In this document: piece by piece, positions 29,890-61,684 of the stretch
Position numbering within the stretch: the stretch's first letter is position 1
Layout: the number at the start of each line of letters is the position of its first letter
NCBI GenBank assembly: GCA_025526995.1
Contig: JAHLKG010000019.1
Location: 603,539-667,538 of the forward strand
Direction of reading: 5' to 3'
Length of the DNA: 64,000 nt
DNA from: Powellomyces hirtus
Taxonomy: Eukaryota; Chytridiomycota; Chytridiomycetes; Spizellomycetales; Powellomycetaceae
Notes under the pieces: model-generated
The model's database searches: none
Told to the model about the DNA's origin: nothing
Seen by the model: the letters and a program-made list of their open reading frames with translations, nothing else
Made by a program: the position numbers and the translations under genes

Positions 29890-30105
29890 GCAAGTCCATG
29901 AAAAGAGATGTGCAAAAAACTGTCGAAATGCGTGACAGTGAATACCTTGGTCAATACTTGACCAAATGGAACGAGACAGCGATATTCCTACTCGCCAGGG
30001 TCCCCTCTACGATGGGGTAATGCAGCGCTGTGTCTGTGTTGGGTTGGGAAAGCAAAGGGCACACAGAGATGGCCCCCATAGTCAAAAAACCGTCGATAAA
30101 TGCAA
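29890..30105 (+). repeat. Dispersed repeat, intact counterpart of the Copia 1 target site
   Basis: About 150-200 bp here match, at roughly 80% by eye, the pieces flanking Copia 1 (51790-51862 and 57621-57769). Shared blocks include CTACTCGCCAGGG, TGGGGTAATGC and ATAGTCAAAAA. The sequence GTCAATACTTG is uninterrupted here and is split by Copia 1 in the other copy. Confidence 0.75.
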
Positions 30106-48753: not shown

Positions 48754-49163
48754 ATGCCCGGAAACAATTGGATTTTGGACTCTACAGACAATCAAGTGTT
48801 ATATAATCATAAATTTTGGATTGGGCTTTTGAACAAGCAAGTCAGTGCATAGGGGCCGGCAGTACCTCGCGGCCACTCTTCAGCGGACGCGCATGGAATT
48901 AGGCAATCCGTTAACGACTGCGACATTTATGGTGCTCTCAGAAGCATTGGTTGCTTTTGCGGAATGGATGGGGATCCCCAAGACCATTTGAAGCAACGTG
49001 GCGCAGCCCGACGCGTGAAATTGCGCAGTGGACCCCGACAACCATGTAACTCTCATTGCAATCCTAATACAAGAGTGACAGGGAGGCACTACCCACCCTG
49101 CACCTTTACGTAAGGGGGGCATCAAGCAGCGTCAACTGCCTCGGAAAAAGTAAACTAAACTAT
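48754..49163 (-). other. 3' flank of the Fanzor gene; candidate guide-RNA region
   Basis: 410 bp without an ORF on the Fanzor sense strand. It contains a hairpin at 49075-49103 (GTG-A-CAGGG / CCCTG-CAC, 8-bp stem with one bulge). Fanzor guide RNAs are known to lie at or just past the 3' end of the nuclease gene, so this is the place to look. No RNA is shown by sequence alone. Confidence 0.25.
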
Positions 49164-51735
49164 TTACTCACACTCAGATCTACTCAGATGGGCTGGCCTG
49201 CCATTCCCGTCAATCATGGAACGGACAATGAGATCAAAGTTGCGAGTGGCAAGAAGATCACGGTTCCAGTACTTGAGCCGCGAGAGGGTGTGTGGATTGA
49301 CAGCCCAAGAGGCATCTTCACACGCTCTGCATCCGAGCAAGCCGTGGACCTCATCCATCTGCCCTAGAGCAGCTCTCCAAGGCCGTGGCGAGAGTCGCCT
49401 TGGGAGTACATGTGTGTGCACACGTCCGTGGCACTGTGGGCAACAGGAAGAAGTGCGGTATTCGTCGAGGAGGAAGCAGGGTATATGATGCTTTTTGAAA
49501 AGCTCGCGGAACCCTGCTACCTTTGACGGCTCTACCCATTTCCTGTGCCTACCTTTCGTCTGGCTTGACCAGTCTCCCATGACCACCAGAAATTTGGGGC
49601 CGAAGCGTTCCCGCATGTGCATGATGAGCTTGTCCTCCGCTGACATCTTTCGCCGCAGAGCGTCAAACTTCATGGTTGTCCAGATGCCTTAAAAAAATGA
49701 GAGAAATTAAAAACAACCAGCAACGCTAGCGGCTAACAAAAACTACTTACCTGTGTTGTAGCAATTAACCAAAGAAGCACGGTTGACTGCTTGCCACTCG
49801 ACCCATTCAGAGAAAGCAAGGACATTCATGGTCTTATGGGAAGGGGTTGTCGACTCCAAGTGCATGATAGTTCTCGGAGGCCCTTTAAAATTTGCGGGTA
49901 GTACTTCCAAAGTTTGCGCTCGAATAGTTTCTCTTTGTCGGCGCATGCGGCGAGAGTTCGTGTCGCTGGATCGTTGCATCGACGTGTACCGCAGTGTTCG
50001 AGGAAAGGTATGAGGTATGTCCGGGTGATGAGATCCCGCTCGATATAACTCTTTCATGTAGAGGAGGTCTCTGACGCCGGGGTCGATGAGTATAACATTC
50101 GTTTTGCCATCTGTCTGTGCTGCACGTCGAACACGTTCCAAATTTTGGGGCACGTCCACATAGAGGGCCTCGACCATAGCTTTCCGCTTTGCCTTTGTCA
50201 TTCTGGTTGGCTTCCGAGTACCGCCGCTGGTTGCCGCTCCAGGTGCCTTGAGCCATACAGAGATACCTGTGCCATCGGTTTGAATGGTTCCTTCAAAACA
50301 ATGAGTAAAAGGATGTTGTCCTCGTCGATGAAACGAAGAGTGTCCCAGATTGAAGCACATAGCCCAGATGTTCATCTTGTTATTCAAGTTGTTGATCGGC
50401 ATCCTCTTGCAGAGCAGAACTACATCACGGAGAAGCTTGGTGTCGATGGTAACATACGTTTGAGTATGACTCGTTCGAAGAGGCAAGGCGTTGAAGAGGG
50501 GAAGACCATGCATTTCGAAAAGGCGGGCCACTCCTGCGTAACTTTCCAGATAGAGCTCAGGACACGCTACAACATCGACATCCACAGTAACATTTTCAGA
50601 AAGATTGAAGGCTCGATCTGGATATGTGCCCCATATGTCTTCGAGTACCTCCAGCTCCAGGGGAGAGAGTTGCAGCAGCACTTTTGGTGACTGTAGGCGA
50701 CCTTCGGGATAAACCGCAAGCTCCTTGACATGGCGCGCTCGTCGAGAGAGATGTCTGAGGCTAAGTCTCAAGTCGTTGCCTGAGCGGAACCTCTGCATTA
50801 CATCGGCAAGCTGCTTGATTCGCAATCGCTGGTTAATGTAACTTCGAATCTTCTCCCCAAAGTGCATCTTGACATTGGTGTGCATGTTGGCAAGGATGCT
50901 TGCAGCACAGTAATTGATGGCATTTTGGATCTCGTTTCCAGTTGTTGTTGGAGTGAACCTTGCTTCAACAATGTAGGCTTGAATGATTGGACAAAGACTG
51001 TGGATGTTATTAGAACATGAAACTAGATGAGAATTGCCGGGAACTTCTGGCTACCTTGTAGTAATATAGACCATATCTGCTGCTCTTGGGTTGTAACGCG
51101 GGTTGTTGAGGAGGGTAAGAATAATTCTAATGTGCTTGAGAGTCAGCACAGGAAAAGACCCGGCAACTTGGCACCGCAATAGCCAATATTTGATTGCCCA
51201 CGTAGCATGCTGAGCAAGGTGATGAACAGTGTTGATGAAGGACATGAGACGCGCCTGCTCTTGTGCAGTACCAAAACAGGCCCTGGCAAAAGAGCCCTTA
51301 TTGGTAACAACCGACGGCACTGCAGGTGGTTTCTTCCTCTTCTTTCTCCTCCGTAGACGGCGTGCAAGTTCTCTTGAGTAGAAGTCGTCACCGGAGGTGT
51401 CCCAGTCAGAACTGGATGAGCTTGAAGAGCTGGAACTTGGGTTGGAGTCCGGACGATGTGGCTGCCGAAGCTTTTTTCTTGGAGTGGCCGGTATCTGAGG
51501 GACCGGGTGTTCTTGTGGAGGCGTATGGACATTGGTGTTGCTGCTGGCAGGATCGCTGCTCCATGGTGAATCTGCGCTGCTGCCTCCGGGATCGTGGACG
51601 TCTCCATATTCCTTGGGACTCCTGGTGTCATTGTAAAGACTGAGGCTTTGACATTGCAAACGTCAAATCCAAATGTGCGACGAGCTTTTACCTGGTGCGC
51701 TGTTTCTTTCTAGGAGGGGACTTTTGGTTGCTCAT
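49164..51735 (-). CDS. Fanzor RNA-guided endonuclease (eukaryotic TnpB homologue)
   Basis: Fanzors are eukaryotic TnpB relatives that cut DNA under a non-coding guide RNA. Four exons (51735-51692, 51639-51055, 50997-49751, 49687-49164) with introns of 52, 57 and 63 bp join to exactly 800 codons (799 aa). The N-terminus has a monopartite nuclear-localisation-like signal (SPPRKKQRT) and a second basic stretch (ARRLRRRKKRKKP). Family motifs: GTIQTDGTGISVWL; RuvC-I ILIDPGVRDLLYM (D515); RuvC-II FLVVMGDWSSQTKG, where G663 occupies the usual Glu position; an alternative Glu in LLDEYRTSS (E701); zinc finger CCPQC...CRAC (C708, C711, C745, C748); RuvC-III WNRDLLATRNF (D769). The Gly swap and relocated Glu are typical of Fanzors. 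All catalytic residues are present, so it may be active. Confidence 0.93.
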
Positions 51736-51789
51736 GTCATGCAGGCTGTTTGAGTGGGAGTCTTTCTTCTCGACGCGAAGTACACCGGA

Positions 51790-51862
51790 ATGTGCATAGA
51801 GATGTTGTCAATAGTCAAAAAAAAACGTCAAAAAACGCGAAATCGAATAACTCTGTCAATAC
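51790..51862 (+). repeat. Left piece of dispersed repeat interrupted by Copia 1
   Basis: Contains GTGCATAGAGATGTTGTC and ATAGTCAAAAA, shared with 57728-57756. The end (GAATAACTCTGTCAATAC) matches 29938-29958. It is the left flank of Copia 1 and includes its AATAC target duplication at 51858-51862. It lies 50 bp upstream of the Fanzor start codon. Confidence 0.65.
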
Positions 51863-52227
51863 TATTGGAGATATCGGCACTTCCAGTACTTTATCGGAAT
51901 TGCAGAGGATTGGCCGAATTCGATGTGGCCTCCAGTATACTTCGTAAAGGGGGGTTACAGAGCTCTTCTGTGATGCAGTTGACGATGTAGCGTTGTCAGA
52001 TGCACGGAGATGTAATGTATGTGAATGTATTTTTGTCTTAAAGTCTTTTCGGTAATGTCTCGCTTCGAGCGTTCTAATCTACTTTTTCTCCAATCACGTG
52101 ATCACACGTGATCCAATTCAGCTCTTAGCGTTACCGGTATGACGGTCACGCGTTCTAGTCGGAGAATCCAAGTAAGGATCTAATGTAAGGACCAAACGTT
52201 GAGTACGCAAGTCTCAACATTCCAATA
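51863..52227 (-). repeat. Copia 1 3' LTR
   Basis: 365 bp, with TATTGGA...TCCAATA ends. Contains a dense motif CCAATCACGTGATCACACGTG with ATCCAAT at ~52091-52116: two CACGTG boxes flanked by CCAAT on each side. Confidence 0.97.
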
Positions 52228-52266
52228 CACCCCCTGTCCGAGCAATCGATCCGCGATGATGGGATT

Positions 52267-55200
52267 TTACTCATTCGGGAGCTCCGTCATGGACGCTTTC
52301 GTCATTGGCGTGATGGTGTTATCGTAGTGCTTGATGCACATGTTTTCGCGATGGTATTTGAAAGCCGGGGCCGGTAAAGGCTTCGTAAGTGAGTCGGCTA
52401 CCATTTCAGCGGTGGGTAAGTACTCCAGATGAATCTCCTTGTCGATGTGATCACGAATGAAGTGATGTCGAATGTTGATGTGCTTGGTACGGGCGTGATG
52501 CACGGGATTCCTTGCCAACGAGATGCATGACTGATTGTCTTCGTAGATCGTTGTAGGTCAAGCATTCTCATCGAGATATTCGGGGATTTGGAGTTCTTGC
52601 AGGAGTGAGCGAAGCCAGATTGTCTCTTGAGTGGCGAATGAAAGTGCCATGTATTCAGCTTCGGTAGATGAGAGAGCAACGGTGGGTTGGCGCTTCGAAG
52701 CCCAAGTAACAGGGCCCGCATTTCCAATGTAGAAAAGGTAGCCAGTGATTGACCGTCGATCAATGATGTTGTTTCCCCAATCGGCATCGCTGTAGCCGTG
52801 AAGGGTGACGTTATTTCCGCCGATGCAGAGGCTGTAATCCGATGTTCCCCGTAGGTAGCGAAGAACGCGCTTGGCAGCTTGCAGATGTTGAGGCGAAGGG
52901 TTGCTTGCGAAGCGAGAAAGCATACTGACTGCGACAGCGATGTCAGGACGCGTGCATATCATCAGGTACATGAGAGAACCAACGATTTCGCGATATTCTC
53001 CTTCTTGCGGATTAGGTGAAGTCTTTGTATTTTCGACTTCGTAGTGTTCGAGTTTGGTCTGGTCCATCGGAGTGTTGACGGGCTTGCAATCTTGCATACC
53101 AAAGCGCTCGAGGATGTCATTTACATATGACTCTTGATCGAGGTAGATGACGTGCCTTGAGTAGTCGCGTCGAACTCTCATTCACCGGTAGTGGTTGACT
53201 TCGCCTAGGTCTGTCATGTTGAACTCGTTGTGCAGGGATGTCTTGATTGACGAGATTTCCGATTCGGTCTTTGCGAAAATGAGGAGATCGTCGACGTAGA
53301 CGGAGATGTACTGCGATGAGTCACTTTCAGGTAGAGTTCTGATGTAGACGGCATTGTCATTTGCCAGGCGCTTGAATCCCAAGGAGGTCAGTTCTTTGTG
53401 AAGTAGGGAGTACCATTCGCGCGGGGCTTGTTTCAGACCGTAAAGGGCCTTTCGGAGTCAAAGGATGGTCCCAGGCGGAAAGCCAGAGCCTTCAGGAGCA
53501 TAGATTAGGATCGTCTTGGTAACAATCCCATTCAGGAATGCGGTTACTACATCCATTTGATGGCATTTCAAGGCTAGACTGGCGGCGAGAGCGAGAAGGA
53601 CGCGTTGGGTAGCAATCTTGGCAACCGGAGCGTAGGTTTCGTTGTAGTCGATGCCGTAGCATTGTTCGAAGCCTTTCACTACAAGCCGGGCCTTGTATCG
53701 TTGGGGTTGACCATTCAGGTCTCGCTTAATCTTGAATACCCATTTAGTGCGGATGGGCCGTTGATTGTGCGGTAAGGATTTGGGGTTAATGACTTCCCAT
53801 GTTTCATTGGTATGAAGGGACTTCAATTCGGCATTTATGGCCTCGGTCCACTTCGGCGCGTCGTCTGATGAGAGTGCTTGTTTGTAGGTTTGGGGTTCTT
53901 CGGTACTTGCAGCCGAAAGAGCACTCGCCGTCTTCTCGTTGATGTAGTCAGCGAAGACTGTCAAATGATTGACATTTTCGAGCGGTTCCCATGTATTATC
54001 TTCGTCTTCGAATCCTAGCCATTTGCAGAGGAATTCGGGGCCTTCCGGGCCATCACGTGAGTCGAGAATCTCTTCGACTTCGTAGAGTTCTTCGGGCGGG
54101 ATGTAGTCTTTCGCGAGTTCGAGTGCTGAATTTTCGTCGAACGTTACATCGCGAGAAATGACTATTTCTCGACGGTTGTCATCCCAACAGCGGTAAGCGC
54201 CGTCAAATTCGTAACCAATGAGTTTGAGACGTGTGGCGCGCGGTGCCAACTTTCAGACTTGTTTTCTCTTGACGAGATGCACGAAGGCATCGGCCCAAAT
54301 CACACGAAGGTGAGAAAGTGAGGGCTCTTCGCCGTTGAGCCGTTCGTACGGCGAAATGTTGTTATTGGACTTGTGGGGTAGGCGATTCCGTAAGTAGACT
54401 GTTGTAGCCGCTAACTCGGTCCAGAGTTGTTTCGGGATGCCGTATGAGTGTTCCAAAGAACGAATGGTGTCGAACAGGGTGAGGTTGAACCTTTCAGCTA
54501 CACTGTTAGACTGTGGGGAATCTGTAGCGGTGAGTTCGTGCAGAATGCCCTTTTTCGAAATGAATTCTTTCAGATCGTGATTGACAAACTCCCCCCCTCG
54601 ATCGGAATGAAGTCGTCTGACCCTTTTGTTGGTCTGTTTTTCGATGAAATTGATGAATTCAATCAATTTTCCAGTAGATTCGCTCTTCGTCTTCAAGAAG
54701 AAGATCCATGTGAAGCGTGAATAGTCATCGATCACAACGAGGGCAAATTTCTCATCGCCAGCCGCGGGTATGTGCGGACCGTTTAGGTCGAAATGTAGGC
54801 GATCGAGTGGCGTCTTGGACCGTGTCATCGTACCGTTGAATGGTGAGCGCTTGTGCTTACCAAACTCGCAACCTTTGCAGACTTTGTTGGTCATTGGGAG
54901 CTTGAGTTGCTTCATGATGTGAGTGCCAGGATGGCCCAATCGGTGATGCCAGAGGGTTCCTTCGTTGACTGGAAAAGAGGGACCAGAACAAGCCCCAGAA
55001 GAAGCCGCCGAAGCAGCGGCGGCGGCGGCGGCGCCATTGGCGGATGGTGCCCCCGAGGGGGCACCATCCTCAGCATCATCCGATGCTTTTGGGGCGGCCG
55101 GCCCCCCACCACAGCACCCACAACTCTCACTCTCCAGTGGGGGGCTGGCCAGCCCCAAATTGGGGCGGCCAGCCCCCTCACTGGAGAGTATGGGGCCGGC

Positions 55201-57141
55201 TGGCCCCCCATTCGGGGCAGCCGGCCCCTCCGACGTGGCTTGGAGCGGGGTAGAACGCGTGACCGCCATACCGGTAGCATCTGTCGACAGGTTGAGTGCT
55301 TGAATCGATGTATCGGACGCGTGTGTCGGTACATTGGACGCGTTTGTCCATTTTGTCAATTCGGTAGATGTATTTTTCGACGCGTGTGTCGGTACATTGG
55401 ACGCGTGTGTCCTTGAGCGAGTTTGAGTAACAAAAGCCATCGGAGTTGGCGAGATGTGATACATTCCTCGAACGAGAGGTATGGTGATGTCGTTCGTAGT
55501 GCCATTGCAGTCTTGAATGATGGCGCTCTCATCTTCAAAGGTGACTCTCTTTCCATCTTTGGTGAGTGCGGAGACCGAGATGAGAGTCTTGGCGAGCTTC
55601 GGAACGTAGAGAACATCTGTGAGGGGTACATCTCCATCTGGAAGCTTCAAGATAGCGTTTCCTTTCGCTTCGGCATCGAGAAAGGCGTTGTTTCCAAATC
55701 TGACGCGCGTTGAGTGCTCTTCGTAGGATTCGAGAATGGAAATGTCATTCGTCATGTGCTGTGAGCAGCCCGAATCCAGGTATGCCAATGTAGTGGCGTT
55801 ATGTGCTTCTGCAATGTTGGCATTAGCAACGGGTTTTAAGGCTTCGACTGCCTTGGCTTTGAGGGGACAATTGAATGGGGTATGTTCATTCGAATTGCAT
55901 AACCAACAGGGGAAGTTCTGTCTCTTCTTCGAGTCTGTGGTCTTCTTCGCGTCGGTCTTCTTGTGACTTGAGCCGTCTTTCTTTGAAGGTTGGGCTTCGA
56001 GCGCGATGTTTTCGCTCTTCTTGGCGAAACAGTTGTTTTGGTTACTCTTGTTACTACCGTTATCCAGACGCTTGGCAGCTGCCATGAGGCCATGGAGATC
56101 CTTGAAACTTTGAGTTCTGACGAGCTCTGCATGATGTTCATTCATTCCGCGAAGATAGAACCACTTGTAGATTTCGAACGGCACCTTCAAGGGGATTTGA
56201 CTTGTGATCTTCGTGAATGAGGTATTGTACTGCGAGATGGAATGACTTCCTTGTCGGAGTCTTTCAAGTTGAGTGAGCAAAGTTTCTTCGTGATCGCTTG
56301 GTTGGTAACGCGAGAGGAAAGGAGGCTTGGAGGATTCCCAGTCCGTGACGGGCTCCACCATCCCTTGTTCGGCATCTTTCTGGTGATTACAATACCATTG
56401 TTTTGCTTCGCCAGAGAGCTTCGTGAAGATGAATGAGAGTTGTTCTTCTTCAGATACCGGTTTTAGGCGAAAGACTAGAGTAAGCTGATCAATGAAGTCG
56501 GCGAGTTTTGAGAGATTTCCCGTCCCGTCGAATGTAGATACTGCATCGATCGCAGATTTGAAGTATGCAAATGATGTACGTTGTGCGTCTCGATCATCGC
56601 TCTTTCTGCTGCTCGTAGTTGTTGTGCTCTCCGTTGGGGAAGACGGACGAAAGTGAGGGGCAACTGGGGCTTCAACTTCGCCGTGAGTAATGTGTTGATG
56701 TAGAAAAGGGTACTCAAGGCCCGCTTTTGGGCTTCTCATCGGTGAAACGGCCGTAGAATGACCACCGATATGAGGCTTTTCGTACTTCTCGGGTTGTTGA
56801 TGGGAAGTTGATGTAGCGAGAGGGTTTGAACTAGTCAATAAAGTCCTCTCCAACCTGTCCATCCGATGGTCGAGCTTTTCGTCGATTTCCATCTTGAACC
56901 TCTGCAGAATTTGCATGACAATGTCAGTCGGTACTTCGGACGGTACTATCGCCGAGTCTGCATGAATTTCTCCATGATTCATCTCATCCACATCGGCATC
57001 TGCGTCGTGGGAATCATGGTAGATTGCGGCATCGATATTAACGTCTTCTTCAGCGTCAGGACCCCGTTGGGCTTCTCGTGTGGCTTGACGGGCTTGTTGG
57101 CGGGTCTGCACTCCTTGAATGGGAGATCTTGCAGTAGGCAT
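52267..57141 (-). pseudogene. Copia 1 Gag-Pol polyprotein with four stops
   Basis: In reading order: Gag (FAYFKSAIDAVSTFDGTGNL, QWYCNHQKD); zinc knuckle CWLCNSNEHTPFNC (CX2CX4HX4C); aspartic protease AYLDSGCSQHMT; a repetitive NVPTHAS-type and Gly/Pro/Ala linker; integrase HHRLGHPG...CKGCEFGK with D (HFDLNGP), D (HSDRGGEF) and E (VAERFN); a chromodomain-like segment (EFLCKWLGFEDEDNTWEPLE); RT with YVDDLLIF; RNase H (SSTEAEYMAL). TGA stops at 54253-54255, 53458-53460, 53182-53184 and 52558-52560. Copy 2 has a sense codon at three of these; two of those three are CGA to TGA. The stop at 53182 is shared by both copies. Confidence 0.95.
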
Positions 57142-57227
57142 CTTGACGGTGTGCTCGGTACTTTCTTGGCACTTGAATTTGACGGAAGACTTGTAGTTTG
57201 CAGGTTTTACGAAGGGAGAATGATTCG

Positions 57228-57255
57228 AATTCGACCGGTCTCAGGGCTCATAACC
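57228..57255 (-). promoter_or_regulatory. Copia 1 primer-binding site
   Basis: Directly inside the 5' LTR, the minus strand reads GGTTATGAGCCCTGAG. Its complement, GGGCTCATAACC, is the anticodon arm of initiator tRNA-Met. Priming would then use a half-tRNA, as known for Drosophila copia. Confidence 0.65.
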
Positions 57256-57620
57256 TATTGGAGATATCGGCACTTCCAGTACTTTATCGGAATTGCAGAG
57301 GATTGGCCGAATTCGATGTGGCCTCCAGTATACTTCGTAAAGGGGGGTTACAGAGCTCTTCTGTGATGCAGTTGACGATGTAGCGTTGTCAGATGCACGG
57401 AGATGTAATGTATGTGAATGTATTTTTGTCTTAAAGTCTTATCGGTAATGTCTCGCTTCGAGCGTTCTAATCTACTTTTTCTCCAATCACGTGATCACAC
57501 GTGATCCAATTCAGCTCTTAGCGTTACCGGTATGATGGTCACGCGTTCCAGTCGGAGAATCCAAGTAAGGATCTAATGTAAGGACCAAACGTTGAGTACG
57601 CAAGTCTCAACATTCCAATA
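57256..57620 (-). repeat. Copia 1 5' LTR
   Basis: 365 bp, same ends as the 3' LTR. It differs at about three positions (for example near 57440, 57535 and 57549). Confidence 0.97.
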
Positions 57621-57769
57621 AATACTTGTCCAAATGGACCGAGACAGTGAGATTCCTACTCGCCAGGGCCCGCTCTACAATGGGGTAATGCGGCGGGGAT
57701 CTGCGTTGGGTTTGGAAAGCAAAATGTGCACAGACAATGTTGTCCGTAGTCAAAAAGACCCCATCAAGA
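57621..57769 (+). repeat. Right piece of dispersed repeat between the two Copia elements
   Basis: Starts with the AATAC target duplication and continues CTTGTCCAAATGGACCGAGA. About 80% similar by eye to 29952-30090. It is cut on the right by the LTR of Copia 2, so both elements lie in the same older repeat. Confidence 0.8.
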
Positions 57770-58134
57770 TATTGGAGATATCGGCGTTTCCAGTACTTTA
57801 TCGGAAATGCAGAGGATTGGCCGAATTCGATGTGGCCTCCAGTATACTTCGTAAAGGGGGTTTACAGAGCTCTTCTGTGATGCAGTTGACGATGTAGCGT
57901 TGTCAGATGCACGGAGATGTAATGTATGTAAATGTATTTTTGTCTTAAAGTCTTTTCGGTAATGTCTCGCTTCGAGCGTTCTAATCTACTTTTTCTCCAA
58001 TCACGTGATCACACGTGATCCAATTCAGCTCTTAGCGTTACCGGTATGACGGTCACGCGTTCTAGTCGGAGAATCCAAGTAAGGATCTAATGTAAGGACC
58101 AAACGTTGAGTACGCAAGTCTCAACATTCCAATA
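57770..58134 (-). repeat. Copia 2 3' LTR
   Basis: 365 bp, same inverted ends and the same CCAAT/CACGTG block (~57997-58024) as the Copia 1 LTRs. Confidence 0.97.
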
Positions 58135-61628: not shown

Positions 61629-61684
61629 CTATCACAGTGCAGTCAGCGTGTAGTATATACTACACGCTGACTGCACTGTGATAG
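61629..61684. repeat. Perfect 56-bp palindrome
   Basis: Two 28-bp arms without a spacer; the left arm starts CTATCACAGTGCAGTCAGCG. It sits exactly at the truncation point of Copia 2 and forms a strong cruciform/hairpin. Confidence 0.97.

Follow-up and report, generated by a model that had tools for sequence, protein, structure and literature searches.

The closest described system to the one reported here is Spu-1 of the chytrid Spizellomyces punctatus, whose Fanzor1 protein, SpuFz1, has solved structures and a tested guide RNA; the structural part of PMC10432273 places its residues D383, E541, D606 and Asn385 at two metal ions. The S. punctatus genome has 42 Fz-gene loci and 134 ghosts, and a 75-nt scaffold was seen as small RNA together with 14-15 nt of flanking sequence (PMC10432273). 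A second Fanzor1, PpFz1 of Parasitella parasitica, has an extra FRI domain according to the domain description in PMC11423790, and both SpuFz1 (8gkh) and PpFz1 (9cf0) were solved as RNA complexes (structural parts of PMC10432273 and PMC11423790). The related nuclease TnpB likely maintains its transposon, as set out in parts of PMC10278001 and PMC10432273. Fanzor1 genes, intron-bearing Fanzors, ghost loci and retroelement insertions are already in print, in the sections of PMC3627910, PMC10432273, PMC11423790 and PMC10711439 that deal with them, and the gene described here extends the known family by one Fanzor1; it is no new kind of system. Among the main texts searched, from 2018 on, we found no paper that pairs Powellomyces hirtus with Fanzor (supplements of surveys may name it).

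Relationship to SpuFz1 and gene model

The window, which is the whole stretch of 64,000 nucleotides of P. hirtus DNA that was analysed, carries on its minus strand a gene (51735-49164, rebuilt from the sequence) that we consider, with a probability of roughly 0.8, to encode a Fanzor1 (OMEGA-type) RNA-guided DNA endonuclease of a mobile element. An earlier note, made from the sequence alone, had called a Fanzor at 49164..51735; its coordinates are correct, the strand being minus, and its identification is borne out by the homology to SpuFz1, by the active-site residues and by the repeated element to which the gene belongs. In phmmer, the best PDB match of the protein is SpuFz1 (8gkh), with an E value of 7.3e-96 over residues 87-790, which rules out chance homology; PpFz1 (9cf0) is less similar (E 1.7e-44) and the four remaining PDB matches have E values between 0.017 and 0.82. 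Counted along the phmmer alignment, D509, E695 and D763 align with D383, E541 and D606 of SpuFz1, the RuvC-II position is Gly in both proteins (G657) and a CxxC..CxxC zinc ribbon is present (C702/C705, C739/C742). In Fanzors, the catalytic Glu at the place of E541 is termed relocated. The same D/E/D, the Gly at RuvC-II and the zinc ribbon are features of Fanzor1 in Spu-1 too, as described in parts of PMC3627910 and PMC10432273. These residues had been noted before as D515, G663, E701, CxxC..CxxC and D769, a numbering that is higher by 6 because it uses an intron-1 acceptor 18 nt upstream. The sole departure from SpuFz1 among the metal-site residues compared is Gly511, which stands in the place of the metal-binding Asn385; PpFz1, also a Fanzor1, likewise has Gly after the RuvC-I DP, and so has the paralogue on contig C4 (contigs are given as C numbers; the window lies on C19).

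The earlier note had proposed a profile search against Fanzor/TnpB and placement in a tree with chytrid members. Of the former, the phmmer match to SpuFz1 stands, while Pfam gave no Fanzor call for the window protein, nor for three of its relatives. One protein search found 3 matches (among the 8000 candidates sharing most words with the query) and a search with residues 340-793 found 12; those with a species name come from P. hirtus, Geranomyces variabilis and Rhizophlyctis rosea, and PF26935 is listed in the protein database for 11 of these 12. Closest are other P. hirtus Fanzors, annotated as 'hypothetical protein' (for example DFJ77DRAFT_508256), and those of G. variabilis, with 36-55% identity. 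Several of these P. hirtus and Geranomyces relatives are truncated models or have lost a catalytic residue (Gly for D763 in the C4 copy, which is matched by the P. hirtus protein P0004; Lys for E695 in BDZ88DRAFT_455536). In a tree of 14 proteins, the window protein falls into an eight-member group of P. hirtus and Geranomyces proteins with a support of 97/97, and SpuFz1, Rhizophlyctis and P0008 fall outside; its exact place within the group has a support of 89/90 and 83/85 only.

The gene model consists of four exons and three introns, which measure 70, 57 and 63 nt and are each bounded by GT..AG, and encodes 793 codons followed by TGA; all its parts lie on the minus strand. Exon 1 (51692..51735) contains the ATG and the basic stretch PPRKKQR. 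Intron 1 (51622..51691) has an alternative acceptor 18 nt upstream, and both acceptors keep the frame. The four spliceable exons with canonical GT-AG borders described earlier were recovered; the 800 codons described with them are obtained only with the upstream acceptor, the alternative being 793 and a stop. The paralogues on C23, C1 and C34 have intron 1 at the same place, in the same phase and with the same AG|G junction as the 793-codon model, behind a PPKKRRR(K)R stretch, and this favours the 793-codon acceptor without proving it. Exon 2 (51055..51621) encodes a Ser-rich and basic N-terminal region, followed by the beginning of the region alignable with SpuFz1. Intron 2 (50998..51054) is absent from C23, C1 and C34, where the exons are contiguous and the proteins run uninterrupted across the junction (ITT|SLCP). 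Exon 3 (49751..50997) holds the RuvC-I D509; intron 3 (49688..49750) corresponds to a gap shared at the same place in the paralogue comparison, and exon 4 (49164..49687) encodes G657, E695, the zinc ribbon, D763 and the stop. There is intron turnover in the family: an intron-like gap at residues 736/737 is found in C23, C1, C34 and C4 and is absent from the window copy and from C5. The description of the gene as complete and spliceable rests on this comparison with paralogues.

With its 793 amino acids, three introns and long Ser-rich and basic N-terminus the window protein differs from SpuFz1, which has 633 amino acids encoded in one ORF. The two basic N-terminal stretches reported earlier as resembling nuclear signals (PPRKKQR and RRLRRRKKRKK) are indeed present. 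Being split by introns, the gene resembles the Fanzor1 genes of CRe-1,2,3 of Chlamydomonas, which, unlike the window Fanzor, have five to ten exons and Helitron ends (element descriptions in PMC3627910).

The Copia insertion and the other copies

That the Fanzor is borne by a transposable element is indicated by a second, 96% identical copy and by a right end that is shared at many sites with different flanks. A DNA search of the P. hirtus genome gave 13 matches, including this 96% copy on C5, which is itself interrupted by an insert of about 14 kb. C19 and C5 share the region 49068-51862, and C5 then continues directly with window sequence from 57621. The intervening 51863..57620 (minus strand) is a Copia-type retrotransposon with LTRs at 51863-52227 and 57256-57620, flanked on both sides by AATAC; C5 has an uninterrupted GTCAATACCTGTCC there. 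As C5 runs straight from 51862 to 57621, the Copia lies inside the 5' region of the Fanzor element: one part of this region (51736..51862, minus strand, shared with C5) is left next to the gene and the displaced upstream part (57621..57769, minus strand; the R repeat) is broken off at 57770 by a second Copia, itself truncated. The Copia reported earlier as lying beside the Fanzor is thus present, within the element's own 5' region rather than beside it. The description of the surroundings as ordinary genes applies at most to the left side, where a transporter-like gene has a weak MFS_1 match (E 7e-4, below the Pfam cut-off); on the right side there are retrotransposons, followed as far as the end of the contig by frames without assignment. 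Rfam finds only a tRNA in the 64-kb window and has no match in four loci.

Two further observations concern the retrotransposons. The Copia frame at 53458-54252 (minus strand) combines an RVT_2 reverse transcriptase with a chromodomain (PF00385, 1e-12), and a capsid of Ty3 type is matched by its gag region; the retroelements best known for chromodomains are those of the Ty3/gypsy group. A perfect inverted repeat of 56 bp is found at 61629-61684, at the point where the second Copia ceases to match the first one.

The two LTRs of the inserted Copia are 99.2% alike, indicating a recent insertion. The Copia has the same direction as the Fanzor and its 3' LTR is 127 bp upstream of the Fanzor ATG: the insertion may have removed the Fanzor promoter, or the LTR could even serve as one. 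The gene could accordingly be a recently silenced relic, encoding a protein able to work, cut off from its promoter and drifting like the other copies, and we give this possibility somewhat less than an even chance. The young Copia within the 5' region speaks for it, and so does the state of the other five gene copies compared, which are all broken or without a catalytic residue: the C5 copy has a stop at codon 255, C705S and a large insert; in the C4 copy, D763 is replaced by Gly and a repeat that also occurs in C34 has probably broken the N-terminal frame; stops outside introns are found once in C23 and more than once in C1 and C34 (the C34 copy lies in two places). Against it stands the window copy itself, the only one of the six with an open frame and all three catalytic residues, with splice sites and zinc residues intact too, and a same-strand LTR that could replace the promoter.

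Divergence from the other copies bears on the same question. Towards its paralogues the window copy has a dN of 0.40-0.50 and synonymous sites that are saturated or nearly so; this points to purifying selection on the Fanzor in the past. Towards C5 we found no sign of present purifying selection: pN is 0.033 and pS is 0.042, a near-neutral divergence as expected of a relic. Of the 55 differences between the two copies (one being the C5 stop), the derived state lies on C5 in 19 and on the window copy in 12, and 24 are unpolarisable; with a near-neutral pN/pS and 12 of 31 polarisable changes on the window copy, current selection is not proven.

The 3' end of the open reading frame is mosaic. Its last 83 bp (49159..49241, minus strand) are identical in 82/83 positions to C1, C23 and C34 and have 81 matches to C11; compared with C4 there are 75 matches, 2 mismatches and 6 missing bases, and compared with the sister copy on C5 74 matches, 3 mismatches and 6 missing bases. 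The 200 bp before this stretch (in gene direction) match C5 in 192/200 positions, and the best local alignment with C1 has 103 matches and 42 mismatches there. The simplest reading is that the mosaic end probably arose by gene conversion from the other subfamily. Constraint at the RNA level was considered as a cause of the near-identity and rejected, because the more distant C1.38 and C23.8 differ in this stretch and because the window is nearer to C1, C23 and C34 than to C5.

The element end and its predicted guide RNA

Downstream of the stop codon, from 49144 to 49068 in gene direction, lies a 77-nt element end with two hairpins that resembles the guide scaffold of SpuFz1 and ends with ..CTCTTGTA. 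As in Spu-1, a scaffold-like region of about 75-77 nt thus fills the space between stop codon and element end, here recognised from sequence alone. We predict 49068..49144 (minus strand) to be guide-RNA scaffold and element end in one, and the flank directly 3' of it (49053..49067, minus strand) to be the guide, its length of 15 nt being set by analogy with SpuFz1. For the first 18 bases of the predicted guide the only exact match in the genome is its own flank; one further site has 2 mismatches, which is about chance level by our own estimate.

Eleven of 15 element ends were aligned; C1, C4b and C23.8 were left out for deletions in the scaffold, and C23.13 as a near duplicate of C3 and C4. 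In all eleven, the first hairpin has an invariant CAGTTGACGCTG and the second hairpin adjoins the element end. The named structure pairs 97.2% of 141 cells, compared to 40-61% when the partners are slid by 1-3 columns, and 1 of 500 shuffles reached this value; the structure was drawn from folds of the same sequences, which favours it. One pair is changed on both sides (6 G-C, 4 C-G), a number of such pairs equalled by 465 of 500 shuffles, and this double change may be a single inherited event. Folding stability of the window scaffold is weak (z -1.0, 32 of 200 shuffles at least as good); three other ends have z between -1.8 and -2.4.

The core of the first hairpin (SL1) is found at 20 sites of the genome (2 in the reversed control), the second hairpin (SL2) with the element end at 12 (0 in the control), and the end of a ghost, used as query, gave 22 matches, two duplicate ghosts being hit at either end. 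Five of the 20 core sites are at Fanzor gene copies (window, C5, C4, C23, C34), two (C1:386096, C11) at what is left of a Fanzor, a short remnant in each case, and the other 13 are without a Fanzor match in their vicinity; for 6 of these 13 the sequence was read. Among the seven unread sites, C3:957450 and C10:403996 lack support from the ghost-end query and may be chance matches. P. hirtus hence has at least about 20 element ends, compared to the 42 + 134 loci of S. punctatus (PMC10432273), and shares with Spu-1 both ghost loci and retroelement insertions in the locus.

Inverted repeats at both ends of the gene-bearing Fanzor copies were looked for and not found, and nor were a left end, a target duplication or a TAM of the window copy; with no inverted repeat found on their left side, the gene-bearing P. 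hirtus copies differ from Spu-1. GCGGCGGG (57697), a candidate left end from the comparison of C19 and C5, was ruled out as the paralogues match through to 57769. Both ends with TA flanks were seen only in the ghost on C6 and C40; the Spu-1 family has inverted repeats of 30-33 bp and a TA duplication. This ghost of 879 bp (L058 and L059, at C40:22077 and C6:1202248) has inverted repeats at both ends, TA flanks and duplicated surroundings, and its left end resembles the first hairpin in inverse orientation.

The conserved two-hairpin end at many loci suggests that the element end may be a guide-RNA scaffold. That it is a mere transposon terminus, a site for a transposase at the DNA level and no guide RNA, is improbable: the same sequence does serve as terminal inverted repeat in the C6/C40 ghost, and the hairpins of the window copy are of weak stability, but the layout is that of SpuFz1, whose 75-nt scaffold, detected as RNA, likewise lies between the stop codon and the element end (PMC10432273), and the loop is invariant and the arms are paired. 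The two roles are, moreover, compatible.

Read as a mobile, guide-bearing Fanzor1 element, the locus suggests the following course: a transcript of the element end would be processed into the scaffold of about 77 nt, with flanking host sequence as guide; the Fanzor RNP would enter the nucleus via the basic N-terminus and cleave both strands of DNA that matches the guide, the empty insertion site in particular; and repair from the filled copy would retain or spread the element. Additional guides could come, in trans, from ghost loci. Domestication by the host, with the Fanzor kept for a cellular task and no longer a gene of a mobile element, would agree with the single intact copy among six and with the adjoining transporter-like gene, yet is very improbable given the element end at many sites with differing flanks, the 96% sister copy on C5, the retroelements on the right side and the absence of signs of present purifying selection.

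The R repeat and DDE_3 transposons

The displaced upstream segment, the R repeat (57621-57769), has 20 matches in the genome, and 59 were found with a related query. Five of the six gene copies (window, C5, C23, C1, C34) have it on the upstream side of the Fanzor; for the sixth, on C4, it was not found in the approximately 1.1 kb read before the Fanzor. The genome also has 19 hits to DDE_3, 15 of them over the Pfam cut-off; we take DDE_3 to be a sign of Tc1/mariner-type transposases. An R repeat is found within 3 kb of 8 of the 19 hits (7 of the 15 over the cut-off) and in 7 of those 8 it lies 3' of DDE_3 in the same orientation, where a simple calculation gives an expectation of about 0.1. 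The R repeats form 26 clusters: 8 have a DDE_3 hit close by, 5 belong to Fanzors and the other 13 have neither. The DDE_3 element on C7 has an inverted repeat; its right end, the only end compared, was not found in 11 Fanzor or ghost loci. The connection between the Fanzor element and DDE_3 transposons is a lead, so far without common ends.

Several single loci stand out. The DDE_3 hits at C7:467508-467921 and C11:98676-99089 lie in stop-free frames of 399 aa with inverted repeats, and the two elements are 99% alike over the 501 bp compared downstream; they are candidates for recently active transposons. Within the window, a further R repeat copy without Fanzor gene is found at 29941-30089 (plus strand), with 81-85% similarity to the sequence upstream in C23, C34 and C1, and at C13:462819-464660 there is a tandem array of about 10 R repeat copies with a period of about 171 bp.

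It is conceivable, though unlikely, that a single catalytic Fanzor1 has survived and acts in trans for about 15 guide-RNA loci without a gene, several of them partial, and that subterminal repeats are common to its element and a DDE_3 (Tc1/mariner-type) family that may be active. For Spu-1, the passages of PMC10432273 on its inverted repeats report that no transposase flanked by them was found.

With a complete protein, a scaffold-like end, ghosts and broken copies in one genome of 29 Mb, P. hirtus offers a second chytrid system, in which the guide RNA, the TAM and variation in the active site (Gly in place of Asn385) can be compared with SpuFz1. The repeat shared with transposase genes is a concrete place to seek the missing partner transposase of Spu-1-like elements. 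Should the service in trans and the sharing with DDE_3 prove true, the Spizellomycetales, where no such partner was found for Spu-1, would have a DDE transposon with a coupled RNA-guided nuclease.
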